A stretch of DNA of 42,754 nucleotides, from positions 1 through 42,754 of the IMG/VR virus record IMGVR_UViG_3300043403_000222; one strand, 5' to 3'. Below, piece by piece: positions 4,927 through 42,754 of this stretch; position 1 is the stretch's first letter, and each line of letters opens with the position of its first letter. The notes under the pieces are model-generated. The model made no database searches. It was not told the DNA's origin and saw nothing but the letters and a program-made list of their open reading frames with translations. The position numbers were made by a program, and so were the translations under genes. Source of the stretch: a virus.

Positions 4927-4932
4927 CAAAAA

Positions 4933-4944
4933 CTACGCGCGTAG
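4933..4944. repeat. Dispersed palindrome, copy 1 of 3
   Basis: The core CTACGCGCGTAG, followed by ATTT, lies 6 nt after a stop codon and 7 nt before the next start. It matches the longer, perfect copies at 27463-27484 and 38925-38946, except that the base left of the core is A, so only 12 bp are perfectly palindromic here. Confidence 0.75.
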
Positions 4945-4951
4945 ATTTCTT

Positions 4952-7111: not shown

Positions 7112-7957
7112 ATGGCGATCGCGGGCGTTATTAATGGCGCAAATCTAGTATTAACAATCGGCGGGTTCGATTCGATAGAAGAGGTCACGTATCCTGCGAG
7201 CTTGGTTTCGACCAAACTCCTGACTACGCCGTCAACCGGTTTCTCCACGCTCAGCCTGATTTTCGGAGGGCAACCAATCTTATACCTGCCGAGCAACAAT
7301 ACCGGGCAGGGCTGGGGAAATACATTGTTTGGGCTGACCGACCCACTGCTGGCCAAAGTACAAGCCCAAACTCAATTAGGAGCATCATCAAGTAGCGGGA
7401 GTGCAGGAACAATGCCTAAGACTGGTGACACGAAACACAGCTATTACACGACATCCCATGATGGCTGGGTGCCCTTGGCAGGGCAGTTGAAAAGTAGCTT
7501 AACTGCCACTCAACAGGCCGCCGCTACGTCACTTGGGTTTGGAGCTAACTTGCCTAACGCTGCCGACCTCGCAATAGTTGGAACTAGCGGAACCAAAACA
7601 AATGGGTCGATCGGGGGTTCAGCCCAAGCCACCATCGGTCAGACCCATCTCCCTTCTGTGAATCTTTCTGGCGGGAGTCACAGTCACTCCGCCTCTGACT
7701 CCGGGCATAGCCACGCTACCTGGGCTGGTAGCGGTGGACAGCAACTCGCCGATGTTAACGGTACGGGTTCAGCGGGAGGATTCGCAGCGAGCTTAGTTAG
7801 TAGCAGCTCGCCCAAAATGAGTACCGGAGGAGCTGGCGCTGCAATTACCGTAGCTTCTAGTGGCGCTTTGACAATCCCTCTGGGCGGTGGTGGTACAGCC
7901 TTGCCGATTCAAAACCCCTATATTGCACTGAACACCTTTATATACTTGGGTGCTTAA
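7112..7957 (+). CDS. Tail collar-type fibre protein
   Basis: 281 residues, rich in Gly, Ser and Thr. The region ADLAIVGTSGTKTNGSIGG, QATIGQTHLPSVNLSGGSHSH and the end ALPIQNPYIALNTFIYLG match the phage tail collar / short tail fibre pattern (ATIGQxxLPxHxHxxxxxxxH..., xxPPYxALNxIIYxG), which binds host surface structures. A His-rich loop (GGSHSHSASDSGHSHA, residues about 190-205) resembles metal-binding loops of fibre tips. It lies away from the other tail genes, beside the lysogeny region, as fibre morons often do. A weak GAGAG ribosome-binding site precedes the ATG. Confidence 0.8.
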   Translation: MAIAGVINGANLVLTIGGFDSIEEVTYPASLVSTKLLTTPSTGFSTLSLIFGGQPILYLPSNNTGQGWGNTLFGLTDPLLAKVQAQTQLGASSSSGSAGTMPKTGDTKHSYYTTSHDGWVPLAGQLKSSLTATQQAAATSLGFGANLPNAADLAIVGTSGTKTNGSIGGSAQATIGQTHLPSVNLSGGSHSHSASDSGHSHATWAGSGGQQLADVNGTGSAGGFAASLVSSSSPKMSTGGAGAAITVASSGALTIPLGGGGTALPIQNPYIALNTFIYLGA

Positions 7958-11794: not shown

Positions 11795-11822
11795 CGAAGG
11801 GCTTTAAATTTAAAACCCTTCG
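11795..11822 (-). repeat. 28-bp quasi-palindrome between two leftward genes
   Basis: Arms CGAAGGG and CCCTTCG flank TTTAAA repeats; the 28 bp are symmetric except for one position (C opposite A on the plus strand, a G-U pair in minus-strand RNA). It lies 9 nt after the stop of the 11831-12070 gene and 30 nt before the RHH gene. It may be an RHH operator or a weak hairpin; no T-run follows. Confidence 0.55.
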
Positions 11823-19140: not shown

Positions 19141-22100
19141 ATGGATAGCAAAGTCGCCTTATTACTGATTGCTGACGACAGCCAGCTCATCCCCCAAATG
19201 GTGCGCTCTGGAGAAAAGGGCGGGGTTTTGATGGGTAATGCCGTCGCCACCAAGATGAAGGTGACGATCGAGCGGGATATGTCTGGGTGGAAGATGCCCG
19301 GAACTAATTCGATTGGTCAAGGTATTGGTCAAGGTATTGGGCAGGGAATTCTCACTTCCATCACCAGAGTCTTAGCCGGAGGAGCTGGCGCGATCGGAGG
19401 ACTACTCGGCGACTCTCTGAAGGTTGGGGGCGACTTTCAGAAAACAGAAGTAGCCTTTACCACGTTCCTTGGTTCTGCCAAGGATGCCAAGAAGTTGCTA
19501 GGCGAAATTCAGCAATTTGCGGCTAAGACTCCTTTTGAGCTGCCGGAAGTAACTGGCTCTGCTCGATCGCTCATGGCCTATGGCATCGCCTCCAAGGATG
19601 TGATTAGCACCCTGAAAATGGTGGGCGATGTGGCGGCGGGAACCGGCCAGCCACTCGAAGACATGGCGCAAATCTTTGGCAAGGTGCGGTCTAACGGGCG
19701 GATGATGAGCCGTGAGCTACACGAGTTCACTAACCGAGGAGTGCCGCTGATTGCTGAATTGGCCAAGCAATTCGGATTATCAGAAGGCGAAATCCACAAA
19801 CTCGTTGAAACTGGCGCGGTGGGATTCCCTGAGCTAGAAAAAGCCTTCAAAGCCATTACTGGCGAGGGTGGTAGATTTTTTAACTTGATGGAGGCACAGT
19901 CAGCCACCATCCCCGGCAAGATTTCCAACATCAATGACCAATTCACTTTGATGAAAATCAAGGTGTTTGAAGCATTCAAGCCAGCCACCAATACGATTGT
20001 TGATATTCTGGGCAGCTCCTTAATCGCGCTGCAAAATAATGATGTGCTTTTTGATAAGTTGACTGCCCAGGCTCAAGCATTCTCAGACGAACTCAGTAAA
20101 AACCCAGCCGTGGCCGAGGGGATCAATAAGGCGATCGCCGACCTGACTGAGCAGAGTTTTAAGGCGCTGCTTGAATCCGCTGAAGGACTCACCAACTACC
20201 TGAAGGAAAACCCCAACGCAATTGCCGATGCTGCTGCCAACCTGCAAATGTTCCTGGGCGTTATGGGTAAGGTGGTGGAATCGGTAGGCATGGCGATCGA
20301 TGGCTGGACAAAACTAGCGGCGTTGATTGAGGGCGTGGATGCTCATTCGGCTCGGGGGACTCTGACCCCAGCCGACCAGAAAGAGGTTGATCGAAGAATG
20401 GCCGCAATGGGCAAAACTCAGACTGGAATAAACGTCTCGAACAAAGGAGTAGAGTTCGGAGAATTTTATAACACTCCAAAAGGACTGGAGTCCAAGCAAG
20501 ATGCCTATGTACGCCACGCTGCTGACGTTCGAGCAGAGCGAAACAAAAAGATTAACCCCGACTATGAAGATCATTCTGATGTGACTTTGAAGCGAGGCAT
20601 TGATGCGGAGGTTGAGCGGCGGATGGCCGCAATGGGCAAGACCCAGACAGGGTTAGAATTCGATAGCAAGAAGGGATTCCGATTCGGCGAATTCTACAAG
20701 ACCGCCCAAGGCACAGAAACAAAGCAGGAAGCTGAATCGCGTATCCGCTCTCAGGTAGAAGGCGAATTTAGCGACAGGAAATTCGCCTATGAGTCTCGGT
20801 TGAAAACGGCTGCTGACAAAAAGAAAACCGATGCGGCTGCTGCGAATAAGAAGCCTGAGATATATGGCCCACCCGCGCCAGTTAAACCCCCAGACTCAAA
20901 AGAAGACGAGGAGCTGAGGCACCGCCAGCAGAAAGAGATTCGAGCTGCTCAAGCTGAATATAAAAAAGACCGGCTAAAGCGCCAGCGAGATAAATTCTCT
21001 GCTGGTTCCGTCGAGCGCATTGGCCTTGACGAGCAAATCGAAGTTGGCGACATTCGGGAAAAGCACTCGGAGAAGATCGTTAAGCTGCGCGAGGATTTAG
21101 CCAAATACGAGAAGGCTGCTCAGCTCAAGATCAAGAAAGGTGAGAAGGGCGGCGTAGATTATGGCGCGGCAATTGCCCGTACTCGCCAACTCCTTACTCT
21201 GGAGCAGCGCAACCTAAATGAAGAGATCGCTGCCAGTGGCGAGAAATATCGAGATCAACGCAGGGAAGCATCACGCGAAGCGCTTAAAGTTAACAGTAGA
21301 AATCGGGAAGCGCTGCGTGTTGCTCAGGTATCTGCTGGCACCACCAAATTAGTTAGTCAGGCTGACGCAGCGGTGCAGGGTAGCCAGCGCCAACAGGCAA
21401 TCCAGTACTCAATCTCCACAAAGAATGTGAATGAAAAGTACGACGCTGGCCGATTTGAACAACAGCAAAGGCTGCTCGAATTACAGCAAAAGCAAGCCGA
21501 CAAACTGCGATCAGGAGAAAGAGGCGGGGTTGACTACAATGCTGCGATTGCTGGGCAGCGAGAAATCATGCGGCTTTCTGAGCAGCAGCGGCGAGATGAG
21601 TTGGCTGGTGTTGCGGCCAAGCGGCGACTAGAATTACAGGCCATCGAAGATCGCCAACTCATGGAGAGACGTGGTGCAACCCGACAGACCGAGCGCCAAG
21701 TAACGGGTGCCAACCAATCGGTGTCTCAGGCTGGCTATCAACTGCAAGAGACTCAAACAAGCGACAGCCGTGCTAGGCGCAATTTGGAGTACACCCGCAA
21801 CCAAGAAGCTATCAATAACAAATTTGATGAGCAGCGCAAGACCAACCTCCAGGCAATTGAGGATGCCAAATTAGCTCAAGAACAGCAAGTCCGCAGTGGT
21901 GATACTGGAGGCATTGATTATGATGCTCAAATAAATGGCCTTGCAATGGTCATCAACAAAAACGAGGAGCTGCGGCAATCTGAACTCCAACTCCTTGCCG
22001 TGCAGAAAATACAGGCTGATACTGTTGCAGAAAGAGAAGCCGCTGATCGGCGGCGCACAGCAACTAGAAGTCGCCGCGATGAACTGGCTGCCAGTCAAAC

Positions 22101-23778
22101 CAGCAAGCGGACTACTGAATTAGAAGGTCGGAAGGTTGGAGTGACCGATCCGATTGTCATTGCGGCGATCGACAAGGAAAAAGCCGAAATTGAGAATGAG
22201 GCCAACAAGGTCAGAGAGCTTAACGCCCTGAACGATGCTCTTGCAGACTTGAAAACTCAGCAGCTCCGCAAAGCTGAAAATGCCAAAATCGGTATTAGTG
22301 ACCCAGCCTTGGAGTCGATCGACTTCGAGAAAGAAAGAGAAGCTATTTTGCAGCGACGCAAGGATGTCCTGGCTCGCGCCGAAAGCCAGAAGAATACTAT
22401 TGCTGGCACCTTCCAGGAAACGACCAACACTACTAATCGGGAAGAGAGAATTGCCGCAGACGAAAAAGCTCGAGTTTTGAGAAATGAGTCAATCAGGACT
22501 CAGATTGCTGAGACTTCAGACGAGAGAGTCAAGGTGGCGCTCCAATTTGAGATTGATCGATCTGATTTAGTTGCCCAGGCAGAGGCCGCAAAACGCGATC
22601 TCGAGAAAATTCTAAGGGGCTTGAATAAACGCCAGTCGGAGCTGGCAGACAAAGGGATCGTCGATCCTCAGCTAGACAAGCTCATCAAGGATACCGACAA
22701 AATGTTGGTGACAGTGAGCGAGAATCAAAGAGCTGCTGAGAACCAGTTGGGCAGACAGGCTGCGCTGAATCTAGCCGTAGCTCAGACTACTGAGTATCGA
22801 AAAAAGGTTGACCAGATATCACTGCTGTACACTCCAGGCGTAGATTTGGCCGAGGCTCAGAGCCAGAAATTTACCCAAGAAGGCGAATTCGCCAAAGCCG
22901 CCGTGCCGGGTCGAGCTGCGGCTGTAGGCCGAGAGCAGCTTAGATACAACGACCAGACATCGAGCTTTGCCGATTCTGTGGCTGCTCGGAGAGCAAAAGG
23001 CGAGGTGATCGATGAGAGCCAAGTTCAGGCGACCGTCGATGTGATGGAGCGGTTACACAATTTCAACTTGGAGAATATTGCCACCCAGTTCGACGTGATG
23101 GCAAAGTCTATTAATTCAGCCAACCTCCAGCTCAGAGAAATGAGCCAGAGCCAGACGGGAGATTTCCTGACAGACTTGGTTTCTGGTACCAAGTCTTTTG
23201 ACGACATCTGGAAGTCAACAGTTAACAACGTGATTCAGGGCATTATCAGAATCGCTGTCCAGAAGCAAATCTCAAAGCTCTTCGATGGCGAAGGAGCCAA
23301 AGGCTCTGGAGATGGAATTCTTGGCCAAGCCGTGGGCTTCCTCGGCAAGATATTCAACTTCAATGACGGCGGCGTAATTGGCGGCGGCTCGCCTCAGCCA
23401 GATCTCACCAGGGGGAGTGGACCGATCGCCGAAGCCGCCAGAAAAGAGGGTAATGGCCATCAGCTAATCATGGGCAAGATTGGTGAGCGAGTGCTGAACC
23501 TGCAAGAGACGGCGGAGTATCACCGCATACACCCGAAAGGTATCTTGCAGAACTTTGAGCGAGGCGGCATGATTGGCGGCGCAGCCAATAGCGGCATCGC
23601 TTCTGGCAGTCTTACTGGCTCAGGCTTAAGTCTGGGCGATATGAACGTGAACGTTAAGAGCGAAGGTCGCTCTCAACCAGAGGCCAGCAACCAACTTGGC
23701 TCAAAGCTAAATCAAGTAATTCGGGCTGCCATCGCCGAAGAAACAAGAGCCGGTGGAATTCTAGCCAAGTTTCGTTGA
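19141..23778 (+). CDS. Tail tape measure protein
   Basis: 1545 residues. Residues about 96-290 are the tape measure domain (TEVAFTTFLGSAKDAKKLL, FAAKTPFELPEVTGSARSLM, GKVRSNGRMMSRELHEFTNRG, ATIPGKISNINDQFTLMK). A long coiled-coil central part (about 590-1330) contains repeats: a doubled block RRMAAMGKTQTG...FGEFY near 415 and 495, and three GGVDY/GGIDY...AI motifs near 675, 795 and 920. The C-terminus is Gly-rich with two hydrophobic patches. At about 0.15 nm per residue the tail would be near 230 nm, which indicates a long-tailed siphovirus. A GQGIGQGIGQG run at 60-70 comes from a short tandem DNA repeat. No strong ribosome-binding site is visible. Confidence 0.95.
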   Translation: MDSKVALLLIADDSQLIPQMVRSGEKGGVLMGNAVATKMKVTIERDMSGWKMPGTNSIGQGIGQGIGQGILTSITRVLAGGAGAIGGLLGDSLKVGGDFQKTEVAFTTFLGSAKDAKKLLGEIQQFAAKTPFELPEVTGSARSLMAYGIASKDVISTLKMVGDVAAGTGQPLEDMAQIFGKVRSNGRMMSRELHEFTNRGVPLIAELAKQFGLSEGEIHKLVETGAVGFPELEKAFKAITGEGGRFFNLMEAQSATIPGKISNINDQFTLMKIKVFEAFKPATNTIVDILGSSLIALQNNDVLFDKLTAQAQAFSDELSKNPAVAEGINKAIADLTEQSFKALLESAEGLTNYLKENPNAIADAAANLQMFLGVMGKVVESVGMAIDGWTKLAALIEGVDAHSARGTLTPADQKEVDRRMAAMGKTQTGINVSNKGVEFGEFYNTPKGLESKQDAYVRHAADVRAERNKKINPDYEDHSDVTLKRGIDAEVERRMAAMGKTQTGLEFDSKKGFRFGEFYKTAQGTETKQEAESRIRSQVEGEFSDRKFAYESRLKTAADKKKTDAAAANKKPEIYGPPAPVKPPDSKEDEELRHRQQKEIRAAQAEYKKDRLKRQRDKFSAGSVERIGLDEQIEVGDIREKHSEKIVKLREDLAKYEKAAQLKIKKGEKGGVDYGAAIARTRQLLTLEQRNLNEEIAASGEKYRDQRREASREALKVNSRNREALRVAQVSAGTTKLVSQADAAVQGSQRQQAIQYSISTKNVNEKYDAGRFEQQQRLLELQQKQADKLRSGERGGVDYNAAIAGQREIMRLSEQQRRDELAGVAAKRRLELQAIEDRQLMERRGATRQTERQVTGANQSVSQAGYQLQETQTSDSRARRNLEYTRNQEAINNKFDEQRKTNLQAIEDAKLAQEQQVRSGDTGGIDYDAQINGLAMVINKNEELRQSELQLLAVQKIQADTVAEREAADRRRTATRSRRDELAASQTSKRTTELEGRKVGVTDPIVIAAIDKEKAEIENEANKVRELNALNDALADLKTQQLRKAENAKIGISDPALESIDFEKEREAILQRRKDVLARAESQKNTIAGTFQETTNTTNREERIAADEKARVLRNESIRTQIAETSDERVKVALQFEIDRSDLVAQAEAAKRDLEKILRGLNKRQSELADKGIVDPQLDKLIKDTDKMLVTVSENQRAAENQLGRQAALNLAVAQTTEYRKKVDQISLLYTPGVDLAEAQSQKFTQEGEFAKAAVPGRAAAVGREQLRYNDQTSSFADSVAARRAKGEVIDESQVQATVDVMERLHNFNLENIATQFDVMAKSINSANLQLREMSQSQTGDFLTDLVSGTKSFDDIWKSTVNNVIQGIIRIAVQKQISKLFDGEGAKGSGDGILGQAVGFLGKIFNFNDGGVIGGGSPQPDLTRGSGPIAEAARKEGNGHQLIMGKIGERVLNLQETAEYHRIHPKGILQNFERGGMIGGAANSGIASGSLTGSGLSLGDMNVNVKSEGRSQPEASNQLGSKLNQVIRAAIAEETRAGGILAKFR

Positions 23779-26718: not shown

Positions 26719-27462
26719 ATGGAAATTTTACAAGAGCTAAATGTCGCTACTCGATCGGCCATACAAGAACAGGCGATCGGCAACTATCCCGAAGAAAGTT
26801 GTGGCATCGTAGTTGACGATCAGGTGATCCCTTTTAGGAACTTGGCCGAAGATCCTACTCGTGACTTTATTCTTGACCCAGCAGCTTGGGCGAAGTACGA
26901 AAAAGTAGACTGCATCTGGCATTCGCATACCAACGATACCGATTTATCTTTTGCTGACATTCGATCAGCCAAACAGCTTAGAGTGCCTATATATTTATTT
27001 AGCCTACCCACCGGCAAGGAATATTTTTACAATCCCCTAGTTACTCCACCACTATTGGGACGACAGTTTGTGTACTGGGCTGCGGACTGTTGGTCGCTAG
27101 TTCAAGACTGGTACAAGATAAATCGAGAAGTTGAGTTACCTGATCACCCAAGAGAGCTGAAAAACGCTGATGAGCTTTACGATTGGGACACACCCGGTTG
27201 GGACATCTACCGAGAGATGCTACCGATCGCCTTTGATCGCTATCCGGCTGATACACCGATCGAGCGTGGTGATTTGGTGCTATCCACTATCCGCTGGCAG
27301 TCACCACCGGAAGCACCCAACACTCCGAATCATGTAGCAATCGTTGATGATGCGGAGAAGTCGGAAATACTGCAACATCTATTCGGACGGCTTTCTGAGC
27401 GCAGTGTTTATGGTGCTGAAGGACGAAGGGCGACTGAATCAATCTGGAAGTTTCGTAACTAG
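26719..27462 (+). CDS. Tail assembly protein K: JAB/MPN plus NlpC/P60
   Basis: 247 residues. The N-terminal JAB/MPN metallopeptidase has Glu25/26 (PEESCG) and the JAMM motif H68-S-H70 with S77 and D80 (HSHTNDTDLSFAD). The C-terminal NlpC/P60-like domain has Cys124 in the DCWSLV motif and a likely His205 (NHVAIV). This two-domain order is that of lambda gpK, which acts in tail tip assembly and possibly cell-wall penetration. It is upstream of the I-like gene as in lambda. Palindrome copy 2 lies just past its stop. Confidence 0.92.
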   Translation: MEILQELNVATRSAIQEQAIGNYPEESCGIVVDDQVIPFRNLAEDPTRDFILDPAAWAKYEKVDCIWHSHTNDTDLSFADIRSAKQLRVPIYLFSLPTGKEYFYNPLVTPPLLGRQFVYWAADCWSLVQDWYKINREVELPDHPRELKNADELYDWDTPGWDIYREMLPIAFDRYPADTPIERGDLVLSTIRWQSPPEAPNTPNHVAIVDDAEKSEILQHLFGRLSERSVYGAEGRRATESIWKFRN

Positions 27463-27484
27463 AAAATCTACGCGCGTAGATTTT
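27463..27484. repeat. Dispersed palindrome, copy 2 of 3
   Basis: A perfect 22-bp palindrome (half-site AAAATCTACGC) that starts right after the stop of the K-like gene and ends just before the ribosome-binding site of the I-like gene (GGGAG at 27486). The T-run on its right side could make it a short terminator. Confidence 0.8.
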
Positions 27485-27495
27485 TGGGAGTAATT

Positions 27496-28056
27496 ATGTT
27501 GGTAAATGTCAGGTTAGTTGGTGATATGGCCGAGGCTTTTGGAGCCAATCACCTGTTTGAAGTTAGCTCTGCTCGCGAAGTTTTCTCGGCTCTCGCCGCC
27601 AACTTTGCCGACTTCAGAGCATATCTATTGGGGTCTGAAGACCGAGGCGTAGAGTATCGAGTGTTGGTTGATGAAGTACCGCTCGACCTTGATGAATTGA
27701 AACGCGCTGCTGCTCCAACTGCTTTGGTGGTGGCTCCGATCGCTATTGGCTCTGGTGGCGCGGGCAAAATCATTGCTGGCATTGGGCTATTAATCTTAAG
27801 CGCTTTCGTGCCATTTTCGATCGGCTTGCTTGGAGCGGGAGTAATTAGTTCGGCATCGATCGGGTTGGGGTTGTTGTTATCTGGAGCCAGTCAGTTGTTG
27901 TCAGAAGGCAGCAAGAAGGATAGCAACAATCCCAGCGGTACAGCTATCGGTGGGAATGGCACCATCACTGATGGCGAAGTAATCCCGATTTGTTATGGGA
28001 GAGTATTCGTTAAGGGGCGAGTGATATCTGCTGGCACTACAGTAAATAAGAGGTAA
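27496..28056 (+). CDS. Tail assembly protein I
   Basis: 186 residues from ATG at 27496, with GGGAG 5 nt upstream. VNVRLVGDMAEAFGANHLFE, AREVFSALAANFADFRAYLL form the N-terminal ubiquitin-like domain of lambda gpI; two hydrophobic segments follow (GKIIAGIGLLILSAFVPFSI; GVISSASIGLGLLLSGASQL) and the end GEVIPICYGRVFVKGRVISA matches the conserved C-terminus. gpI acts with gpK and gpJ in tail tip assembly. The J-like gene is 11 kb downstream, not adjacent as in lambda. Confidence 0.88.
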   Translation: MLVNVRLVGDMAEAFGANHLFEVSSAREVFSALAANFADFRAYLLGSEDRGVEYRVLVDEVPLDLDELKRAAAPTALVVAPIAIGSGGAGKIIAGIGLLILSAFVPFSIGLLGAGVISSASIGLGLLLSGASQLLSEGSKKDSNNPSGTAIGGNGTITDGEVIPICYGRVFVKGRVISAGTTVNKR

Positions 28057-28058
28057 CG

Positions 28059-28445
28059 ATGCGACCAGTAATGCAGACTAAATTCCCAATTCGCGGCAAT
28101 TGCTGGAGAGCGGCGATCGCCAGCCTACTTGAAATTGATATTGATTCCATGCCAGCCTTTGAGGATGCTGGCCATCGAATGTTTGTTGATACCCGTACTT
28201 GGGCTACAGAGCAAGGCTACAGCGTATTCACATACGATGCCGACAATCCCCCGGCCTCTTACGCGATCGCCTTCGGCCAGTCCCTGCGCCGATCTGACAG
28301 CGATCATGCGATTGTCGTAGAAGATGGCGTGATGGTGCATGACCCGCACCCGTCTAGTGAGGGGCTGCTCGAAGTCAAGGGCTACTGGGTGATTTTCCGA
28401 GATGAAGAATCTCCGCAAGTCGAAAATCTTCCGGCTGTGGCCTAG
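28059..28445 (+). CDS. Papain-like cysteine peptidase-fold phage protein
   Basis: 128 residues. GNCWRAAIASLLEIDIDSMP has the catalytic-type Cys15, SDHAIVVEDG the His83 and VHDPHPSSEGL the Asp95, the C39/papain-like order. The protein matches a common phage family (GNCxxAxxASILEIPLxxVPxF..., ...HAVVxxxGxxxHDPHPSxxGL) of unknown role. It sits 2 nt after the I-like gene, so it may act in the tail tip or cell-wall entry. An unusual feature is that all three catalytic positions are intact. Confidence 0.75.
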   Translation: MRPVMQTKFPIRGNCWRAAIASLLEIDIDSMPAFEDAGHRMFVDTRTWATEQGYSVFTYDADNPPASYAIAFGQSLRRSDSDHAIVVEDGVMVHDPHPSSEGLLEVKGYWVIFRDEESPQVENLPAVA

Positions 28446-38924: not shown

Positions 38925-38946
38925 AAAATCTACGCGCGTAGATTTT
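38925..38946. repeat. Dispersed palindrome, copy 3 of 3
   Basis: A perfect 22-bp palindrome identical to copy 2 (half-site AAAATCTACGC), starting 1 nt after the stop of the scaffold-like gene and ending 23 nt before the J-like start, again followed by T. Confidence 0.8.
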
Positions 38947-38969: not shown

Positions 38970-41243
38970 ATGGGTAAAGGCGGTGGGGGAAACGAAAGAC
39001 CGGACTCGATTATTACCGACTCCTCGATCAAATTGATCGACATGCTGTGCGAGGGACCGATCGGCGGGTTGGTGGCTGGAGCGAAATCCATTTACCTGAA
39101 TAAAACGCCCATCCAAAATAGCGATAACAGCTATAACTTTCAGGCTCAAGGTAGCAGCAGCTACACAATCGGAGCTACTTCCATCCCTGGCCTTTTCAGC
39201 TTTGGGGCTGCCCCAGGCACCAACACCCAAAGTTATATCCCTGGATTTGACGGGGTGTTCTCCGAGGTCAGCGTCGGAGCCGAAGTGAAAGCTAGTACCG
39301 GAGCAGTCACTCGCACTGTGACGACCCCTGGCTTAAATGCCGTTGTCGTGACCTTAACTATTCCTCGATTAGTTTCCTACGACGGAGAAGGGAACAGTGG
39401 GACAGCGACCCTAAAAGCCAAGATTTACCTCAAGCTGGGCGCGGGACTTTTTGTCCTCCAGCACGATATTGTCCAAGAGGACAAGAGCAGCAATGGATTC
39501 GAGATTCAGCGCACAATCTTGATTCCGTCTGGAACAGCATCCTTTCAGCTCAGGGTCGAAAGGGCAGAGCCTGACAGCACCAGCGACAAATATACAAACG
39601 CCTTTGCCTGGAAAAGCTACACCGAGGTTATTTACAAGAAATACAATTACCCCAACTCCGCTCTAGTAGCGATGGAGATAAACTCCAAAGTGCTGCCCGG
39701 AAACGTTACTGAGCGGCGGTATGAAATCTATGGGCTGCAAGTCAGAATTCCCACAAATGCGACTGTTCAGCCCGACGGAAGCTTGGTTTACAGCGGAAGC
39801 TGGAACGGCGCTTTTTCGACCCCAACTTGGTGTGCTGACCCGGCCTGGTGCCTCTACGACCTGCTGTCAAACAGTCGCTATGGCGCGGCGATACCAAGTA
39901 TTGTTCTGGCTCGAACAAAATGGGACTACTACACGGCAAGTCAATGGTGCAACGCCCAGGTGCCGAATGGAGTTGGCGGGCTTGAGCCAAGGTTCTTGCT
40001 GAATGTGGCGATCGAGCAAGAAGTCAAAGCTTACGATTTAATCACTCAGCTTGCTGGAGTCTTCGGCGGCATCTTTTTCGTCTTAGGCGGCGGGCTAGCT
40101 CTAGCCACCGACAGACCGCTTACGCCAGTGGCTATGCTGACTAATGAAAATTGTTCTTTCAACTACCAAAACACAGCTTTACGCAATCGCCACACATTGG
40201 CTTTAGTGCGCTGGCAGAACCCCGAACTAGTCGGGGACAGCGATTTAGAAGTGGTGGAAGACCAGGAAGGCGTAGCTCTTTACGGGGTTCGCGAGACGAC
40301 GATTACAGCGATCGGCTGTAATCGTCGCAGTCAAGCCCGACGATTCGGACTGTGGTATCTGCTGACCAGTCGCCTTCAAGCAGATACTTTGGTAGCAAAA
40401 TCTAATCTTTCGGTGGCAAGAATCAAGCCGGGAGAAGTTGTATATGTAGCGGATCGCAACAAACGCCAATACAAAATGGGTCGGCTCAAAAGCTCTACTG
40501 CAACTGTGTTAACCCTAGATCAACCCGTTGCTTTGCCAAGCACCCAAATATGGAAAATCTATTATTTATTGCCGAGCGGTCAGAGTACCAGCTCAATCCT
40601 TCAAGCAAACACCGCAAGTCAGCCGACCGTAACGGCAGTTACCGCTATTGCCACCCCCCCAGTAGCGGGGTCAATCTGGGTGATTCAGCCCAGCACTGAC
40701 CCCGACCCTCCGCAGTACCAAGTGTTAGCCGCAGTGCCGACAGAGGACGGAGAATGGGAGCTGACGATGTTTAGATTTAGCCAGACCAAGTGGAGTCTCA
40801 TCGATCAGATGACAACTCTCGACACCATCACGCCAGTTAATGTGGTGCCAATCGTCCCCAACCCTCCGCGCAATTTAGTGGCCTGGGCAGAATCGACAAG
40901 TACCATCTCTACTGGCCTGATCAGCGATCGGTTGGGGATTGCCTGGGACTATCCAATACAGTTGCCCAGCAATGCCCCCGACCCATATACCACAGGGTAT
41001 GAGGTTGGGTATCGACTAGCCAGTAGCAGTAACTTCACTCTGGTCAATACCTCTAATCGGTCAATCGAGATAGACGGTCTGCCAGCAGGGTATTATTTTG
41101 TGCAGGTAAAAGCAATTAACAACCAAGGCCGTAAAAGCGTAGAGATTTCTGCGACTGATACTGTGCCTATCAATGTAATGGTTAATGCTCAAACTCAGTA
41201 CAGCAGCGTAAACTCAGCAGTATTCTTGGCGGCCATAGCATGA
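38970..41243 (+). CDS. Tail tip/host specificity protein J family
   Basis: 757 residues, start supported by GAGG. RPDSIITDSSIKLIDMLCEG then GPIGGLVAGAKSIYLNKTPI, GFDGVFSEVSVGAEV, TLTIPRL, RYEIYGLQVRIPTN, WCLYDLLSNSRYGAAI, YDLITQLAGVFGGIFF and ARRFGLWYLLTSR follow the order of lambda J. A fibronectin type III domain lies near the C-terminus (about 630-725, YTTGYEVGYRLASSSNFTLV). It forms the tail tip and contacts the host. At 757 residues it is shorter than lambda J (1132), and adhesion may be passed to the downstream M-like/LamG-like gene. Confidence 0.92.
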   Translation: MGKGGGGNERPDSIITDSSIKLIDMLCEGPIGGLVAGAKSIYLNKTPIQNSDNSYNFQAQGSSSYTIGATSIPGLFSFGAAPGTNTQSYIPGFDGVFSEVSVGAEVKASTGAVTRTVTTPGLNAVVVTLTIPRLVSYDGEGNSGTATLKAKIYLKLGAGLFVLQHDIVQEDKSSNGFEIQRTILIPSGTASFQLRVERAEPDSTSDKYTNAFAWKSYTEVIYKKYNYPNSALVAMEINSKVLPGNVTERRYEIYGLQVRIPTNATVQPDGSLVYSGSWNGAFSTPTWCADPAWCLYDLLSNSRYGAAIPSIVLARTKWDYYTASQWCNAQVPNGVGGLEPRFLLNVAIEQEVKAYDLITQLAGVFGGIFFVLGGGLALATDRPLTPVAMLTNENCSFNYQNTALRNRHTLALVRWQNPELVGDSDLEVVEDQEGVALYGVRETTITAIGCNRRSQARRFGLWYLLTSRLQADTLVAKSNLSVARIKPGEVVYVADRNKRQYKMGRLKSSTATVLTLDQPVALPSTQIWKIYYLLPSGQSTSSILQANTASQPTVTAVTAIATPPVAGSIWVIQPSTDPDPPQYQVLAAVPTEDGEWELTMFRFSQTKWSLIDQMTTLDTITPVNVVPIVPNPPRNLVAWAESTSTISTGLISDRLGIAWDYPIQLPSNAPDPYTTGYEVGYRLASSSNFTLVNTSNRSIEIDGLPAGYYFVQVKAINNQGRKSVEISATDTVPINVMVNAQTQYSSVNSAVFLAAIA

Positions 41244-41623
41244 ACAATTTAACGATTAGAGACGGGGCTGCTCAAACAAAATATGCCGCAACCGCGAAAG
41301 GCGACGGATCAGCGGCTGATCCGTTTTACCTCTCGGCGATCACCCCCGTTGACTACCCCCCGAACTCGCCAATAAGCGTGACCGTCCTTACCACTAGCAC
41401 CGTGATTTTAGTAAGCAATGCCAACCGCAGAGGGGCATTGATTCAAAACAGGGGAACAGTGAATCTTGACTTATTCTTCGATGGCTCAGGGGCTTTTGGA
41501 GTGGGCTTTTTGCTGGAGCCAGGTGATAGCTATGAAATAAACTCCACCAATTTGCACACCAGCCAGATTTCAGCAGTAGCCCAGACAGGCTCTGGACTCG
41601 TTGTGGTAGCTGAGGGCGTATAG
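41240..41623 (+). CDS. Small tail-associated protein
   Basis: 127 residues, overlapping the J-like gene by 4 nt. TIRDGAAQTKYAATAKGDGS, then LVSNANRRGALIQNRGTVNL, GFLLEPGDSYEINSTNLHTS: a beta-sandwich-type sequence often encoded beside tail tip genes in phages. The function is unknown; probably a structural tail component. Confidence 0.6.
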   Translation: MNNLTIRDGAAQTKYAATAKGDGSAADPFYLSAITPVDYPPNSPISVTVLTTSTVILVSNANRRGALIQNRGTVNLDLFFDGSGAFGVGFLLEPGDSYEINSTNLHTSQISAVAQTGSGLVVVAEGV

Positions 41624-42754
41624 TGGCAATCCTTCTTTTGCCGGACTCAGCAAAAATCACCAAGCGCCAGAAGTGCGCCGTGAAAGTAATAGATGTAAGC
41701 AGCTATTCGCTTCGATCTAGCCATGCGCCTCTTGCTGAGGTCAGCGTAGAGATAGACATCTTGGAGCAGTCTAAGATCGATACCCTGATTGCTCAAATAG
41801 AAACGGCTCGCGGCGAAGGATTTCTGGAGTTACCGTACCTCAGCTCTGGAGAGCGGTATTTGGTGCAGGAATATAAATCTGCTCCCTTGCTGCATGGAGT
41901 CTACAGCAACCTGTCGCTTACCATGATTCAGCAGAGGCTAGGAATCGTGCCAGAGGACGACTCACTGTTTCGATGCCCGCAAGTGCCTCTCTACGAATCT
42001 GCCGAAACCAACTCTTTTCGCAACTTCGCCCAACAATTTAACGGTGGGTTTCAAGCGACAAAAGCAAAAGGGGCAAGGTCTAAAGAGCAGTACTGGGACG
42101 TAGTTTTTCACCTGAGTCCTGCGGAGGCCGCGCTGCTTGACCAGCAGCTTGTAGCCAGAAGAGGGATTTACCCGTTCAACTGGTCGCCGATCGGCGATCA
42201 GTTGAGTAATGAGACTTGGCTATGCAGCGAGTGGCAAATAGAATATTTCGTTTATGGACTATATATCTTCAGCGCTAAATTCTTGCGACAAGAATTTAGC
42301 GCTGTAGTGATCCCGCCGCAGCAATTCTGCGACCCCTACTGGAATAACGTTCTGGCCTTACTGCCACTGAAAACGTCCGTTATAGAGGTCAAGAATGGGT
42401 TAGCTATTACCAATAACACAACTACAGTAGATTCAACATCATTAGATCCTTTTGGTAATCCTGGTGTTTTGAATATTGATCATAACCAGGGGTTTTGTTT
42501 AGCATCTCCTAGTGGTCTACCTGGAGATTATAAAATTGAATTATGGTTTATTCCGTTGGGTGGATTAAATCCTGAAAATACAGGTGGTGACGGAAGAAGA
42601 CTTGGAATGATTCTAGTTGATACATCTAGTCCTTTGGCTTATCAGAATTTTAATTTATACTATAAAAATAATGGTGCAGTTGAAGGAGGTATAAACAGCA
42701 CTACTGCTTTTTACCTAAACCCTGGAACGGTAACTATTGGAAGCTGGAATTATG
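41623..42754 (+). CDS. M-like minor tail protein with LamG-like C-terminal domain, cut by window end
   Basis: Open from GTG at 41623 (overlapping the previous stop by 1 nt) to the window edge, so at least 377 residues and 3'-truncated here. The middle part (WDVVFHLSPAEAALLDQQLV, ARRGIYPFNWSPIGDQLSNE, WLCSEWQIEY, IFSAKFLRQEFS) resembles lambda gpM. From about residue 230 (CDPYWNNVLALLPL) it becomes a concanavalin/LamG-like domain (GDYKIELWFIPLGG; TVTIGSWNY), a sugar-binding fold. GC content falls from about 50-60% to about 34% at 42400, which points to a swapped receptor-binding domain. Confidence 0.75.
   Translation, partial: MAILLLPDSAKITKRQKCAVKVIDVSSYSLRSSHAPLAEVSVEIDILEQSKIDTLIAQIETARGEGFLELPYLSSGERYLVQEYKSAPLLHGVYSNLSLTMIQQRLGIVPEDDSLFRCPQVPLYESAETNSFRNFAQQFNGGFQATKAKGARSKEQYWDVVFHLSPAEAALLDQQLVARRGIYPFNWSPIGDQLSNETWLCSEWQIEYFVYGLYIFSAKFLRQEFSAVVIPPQQFCDPYWNNVLALLPLKTSVIEVKNGLAITNNTTTVDSTSLDPFGNPGVLNIDHNQGFCLASPSGLPGDYKIELWFIPLGGLNPENTGGDGRRLGMILVDTSSPLAYQNFNLYYKNNGAVEGGINSTTAFYLNPGTVTIGSWNY

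Follow-up and report, generated by a model that had tools for sequence, protein, structure and literature searches.

The window, that is, the whole stretch of DNA that was analysed, comprises all 42,754 bases of the linear IMG/VR record IMGVR_UViG_3300043403_000222, and the ORF at its right-hand end appears to encode a gpM-like tail-tip subunit with a C-terminal LamG-like accessory adhesin that recombination brought in from an AT-richer genome. This explanation is held with moderate confidence. As the linear record ends at 42754, the gene is cut at its 3' side. The original prediction of a tail gene with an M-like part at 41623-42754 was borne out, given that the frame is open to the end of the window and contains a gpM-type domain (Table 1).

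The phage has a lambda-like tail. The virus is probably a cyanobacterial phage, a host assignment that we infer from the excess of CGATCG, the core of the cyanobacterial HIP1 motif (101 in the record compared with about 10 expected from base composition), and from the portal protein, whose nearest known matches are those of the cyanophages S-CRES3, S-CBS2 and PSS2 (about 28%). Palindromic hexamers are also strongly avoided; 24 of the 64, including CAGCTG, GGCGCC, TTCGAA, CTGCAG and GGATCC, do not occur at all although base composition predicts about 10 of each, which is consistent with restriction pressure in cyanobacterial hosts. No match to gpL was found in a profile search of the record, nor could a major capsid protein be recognised there. 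The gene order is unusual, with a gap of ~11 kb between the gpI-type gene (27484-28056) and J (38970) that holds the terminase and portal genes on the opposite strand. A 22-bp perfect palindrome, AAAATCTACGCGCGTAGATTTT, lies exactly between the gpK-type and gpI-type genes (27463-27484), with a second copy just upstream of J (38925-38946) and a two-mismatch copy at 4928-4949, and is possibly an operator or terminator common to the tail gene blocks.

Table 1. Tail genes of the record and features of the gpM-like ORF at its right-hand end.
Feature	Position	Strand	Remark
Collar-type tail fibre	7112-7957		
TMP_3 tape measure	19141-23778		
JAB/NlpC protein, gpK type	26719-27462		
gpI-type gene	27484-28056		
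Lambda J-type central tail tip / host specificity protein	38970-41243	+	
127-aa ORF	41240-41623	+	No function assigned; between J and the gpM-like gene
Open ORF, gpM-like tail-tip protein with LamG-like C-terminus (putative)	41623-42754	+	377 aa so far; cut by record end
N-terminal region, residues 1-121	41623-41985	+	Normal GC; no detectable relatives
gpM / PF05939 Phage_min_tail domain (lambda Dit ring type), residues about 122-221	41986-42285	+	hhalign, hmmsearch
Near-perfect palindrome inside gpM coding sequence	42176-42205		Hairpin -21.6 kcal/mol
Inverted repeat with 19-nt arms, coding sequence at gpM domain end	42267-42307		Hairpin -24.3 kcal/mol
Putative LamG-like (concanavalin A-like) domain	42331-42753	+	3' end incomplete; profile comparison, no Pfam match
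Composition step, GC3 0.564 to 0.178	42391-42424	+	Best point 42400

The ORF begins with a GTG overlapping the TAG that ends the ORF before it. Its match to PF05939 (E 4.2e-8, 34 bits) is under the curated cut-off of 39, and comparison with a canonical gpM profile gave 44 bits by hmmsearch and 97% probability by hhalign. Canonical gpM is a protein of about 110 aa, encoded upstream of J in the interval from the tape measure gene to L/K. The gene described here follows neither the canonical placement nor the canonical size, being located downstream of J and encoding over 377 aa. The post-J position is unusual because in all 132 gpM-J pairings on one strand amongst the fetched loci gpM was upstream of J and in none downstream. 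No second gpM was found in the record, which is incomplete, so that a canonical copy could lie outside it. One of the fetched loci (L155:662-1390) encodes a single chain with two gpM domains in tandem, recognised as two Pfam stretches; a trimer of such chains could mimic the hexameric Dit ring. A tandem duplication of gpM within residues 1-125 of the present protein was considered in view of this example and none was detected.

A sudden fall in GC from about 42400 had been noted, and the GC3 values in Table 1 place it there. The log-likelihood ratio of this change-point was 26.2, compared with a maximum of 11.7 over 1000 shuffles, far beyond chance. The preceding GC had been put at 50-60%; the drop is real, but the level before it is about 50%, with single 100-nt windows ranging from 0.37 to 0.58. 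GC over the remainder of the record from 42396 is 0.357. The C-terminal coding GC is 35.5%, whereas the same peptide written in the record's own codons has 48.4 +/- 1.5%; none of 5000 recoding simulations reached a GC as low as 0.355, which is 8 SD under expectation. At third positions the contrast is 0.20 with 0.54 expected under the codon usage of the record. Residue composition cannot explain the drop because it is mostly synonymous, and the C-terminal DNA thus has foreign codon usage rather than an unusual amino-acid composition. The gpM part, on the other hand, fits the record's codon usage (GC 50.0% vs 48.7 +/- 1.1%). Among the main ORFs the C-terminal stretch is the lowest-GC 375-nt coding window of the record, and no other such window is under 0.411 in GC or 0.376 in GC3.

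The step does not coincide with the junction at which the M-like part was thought to end and the LamG-like domain to begin. The gpM domain ends about 115 nt earlier, at 42285, and the step is about 22 codons inside the LamG-like domain, whose start is near 42331 and whose first residues, DPYWNNVLALLPL (42331-42369), are still encoded with normal composition. The claim that HIP1-like sequence stops at the same place was not sustained either; the 566 nt after the last CGATCG (42188) are inside the normal spacing, which extends up to 1872 nt, and the last full HIP1, GCGATCGC, is at 28263, long before the step. Two palindromes within the gene (42176-42307) stand 93-224 nt upstream of the step. They were considered as marks of recombination and set aside, as it is not very unlikely (roughly estimated at about 0.1) for two strong inverted repeats to lie so near each other by chance.

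After the gpM domain there is a linker and then DPYWNNVLALLPL, which resembles the LamG opening DPYLSNVSLLLKMDG of L063 and looks like the typical opening of phage LamG units. No match to LamG was found in the C-terminus with Pfam (PF13385) or PHROGs, the domain being cut by the record end, and a truncated, divergent domain may escape both collections. A LamG profile was therefore built from seven units of L063 and L129, in proteins labelled Laminin_G_3 by Pfam. Compared with this profile by hhalign, the C-terminus scored 34.5 (61% probability), whereas 300 shuffles reached 20.9 at most. Of about 300 natural fragments a single one scored above the C-terminus, and on inspection this one too looked like a LamG/lectin-like tail protein. 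The signal was found on each side of the step, with none of 150 shuffles as good as the pre-step piece and one of 150 as good as the post-step piece. In addition, the C-terminus and the phage LamG units have invariant G, L, E, W and W positions in common. With hmmsearch and the same phage profile the C-terminus was not above shuffles, and AlphaFold models were of low confidence (pLDDT 31 and 47.5) and the Foldseek fold search came back empty; neither result is meaningful. The C-terminus is accordingly regarded as likely, though not proven, to be LamG-like, on the strength of weak-to-moderate homology on both sides of the step.

Searches with the whole protein found no relatives in viral contigs, genome contigs or plasmids, and in phages and viral contigs returned only canonical gpM. 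Likewise, terminase, portal, integrase and gpK had no relatives in the contig collections, and no contig overlapping the record by its last 31 bases turned up in an exact search. Amongst phages, viral and genome contigs and plasmids no relative was found that combines this scaffold with a different C-terminus, for which reason domain swapping is not directly demonstrated. The swapping of a receptor-binding domain, as originally proposed, nevertheless survives in part, in that a foreign lectin-like module on a tail-tip scaffold is the best reading of strong codon evidence and of a precedent in L063.

Nearly all of the 142 gpM-domain matches in ORFs of the fetched loci end at the domain. The IMG/VR record represented by L063 and L064, separate from the window, provides two gpM-domain proteins with extensions of 120 and 478 aa. 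As in the window, a gpM domain is followed by a C-terminal extension and composition falls near the end of the domain; the GC of the long extension in L063 is 8.2 SD below the recoded expectation, and the change-points of L063 lie no more than about 60 nt from the point where the gpM domain ends. Unlike the window, L063 and L064 have extensions that Pfam does not recognise as LamG, in genes placed upstream of J. The lambda-like record L063 (671-7874) has its extended gpM proteins on either side of a 1391-aa protein with six LamG units.

The step might also be the left-hand boundary of a more extensive AT-rich foreign block that takes in the end of the gene and several later genes, in which case the LamG-like domain would be no special unit of exchange. 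Such a block is a possible though rather unlikely alternative. The record stops 354 nt past the step, so that low GC could run on beyond it, and low-GC troughs occur elsewhere (at 11804 and 16052), though between main ORFs. The closeness of the step to the start of the domain and the similar within-gene step near the gpM boundary in L063 both speak against such a block. A chimeric contig end, with the last 350 nt misassembled from another genome, is improbable. The step does lie at the extreme end of a metagenome-derived record, with palindromes about 100-225 nt upstream, but the reading frame is open across it and the LamG signal is found independently on both sides, in register within one frame, which argues against misassembly. 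Slightly less probable still is a wholly native gene made AT-rich at its C-terminus by selection (for example on mRNA structure or translation rate) or by drift in a fast-evolving domain, for although the residues N, T, Y and K, which have AT-rich codons, abound in adhesin domains, and the expected C-terminal GC of 0.484 is slightly under the record's coding mean of 0.505, the deficit is mostly synonymous and its onset abrupt.

Under the preferred explanation, an acquired module on a gpM-like scaffold, the product of the ORF would be a distal tail subunit whose gpM-type domain joins the assembly of the tail tube and J, while the lectin-fold C-terminus would project outward as an accessory adhesin, by analogy with evolved Dits. 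The module from about residue 259 onward would have been gained by recombination from an AT-richer genome whose codon usage it retains, the break lying a short way into the LamG-like domain, at its conserved start. We infer the recombination event and also that the module is exposed on the surface, binds carbohydrate and influences adsorption to the host. The further suggestion that this C-terminal domain sets host range was not supported in the sense of sole control, since J and a collar-type fibre (7112-7957) are encoded by the phage as well. Phage tail adhesins are well known to evolve as mosaics, adhesin swaps being a familiar way to alter attachment, and the finding is a further instance of this; if the explanation is right, the mark of recombination is visible here with codon usage not yet adapted to the recipient.

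In comparison with lambda gpM (PF05939), which the gpM-type domain of the window matches along its length, the protein has 121 additional N-terminal residues and a putative C-terminal lectin-like extension. In a review, gpM is treated as the Dit of lambda, a hexameric ring at the tail end, and 'evolved Dits' are Dits with added carbohydrate-binding modules (PMC7291167). Dits carrying such extra modules are known adsorption factors (PMC7291167; PMC10688798), and with an evolved Dit, lactococcal skunaviruses were able to infect exopolysaccharide-bearing hosts fully (PMC10688798). The evolved Dits of lactococcal, streptococcal and Lactobacillus phages likewise combine a distal tail ring protein with a module of carbohydrate-binding type. 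Their modules are placed in loops of the galectin domain, whereas the LamG-like domain in the window would be C-terminal to the gpM-type ring domain; moreover, the likeness concerns a probable cyanophage in which the ring-type domain is present and the module is lectin-like by weak homology only. A bolder and distinctly tentative proposal is that a lambda-type cyanophage has moved the Dit/gpM function to a post-J position, N-terminally extended, as an interchangeable lectin-bearing tail-tip subunit. If true, this post-J lectin-bearing gpM would be a counterpart, Gram-negative and based on gpM, to the evolved Dits that dairy phages carry. The preferred explanation, if right, would in any case carry the idea of an adhesin-bearing Dit over to a ring of gpM type, in a phage that bears a cyanobacterial signature.
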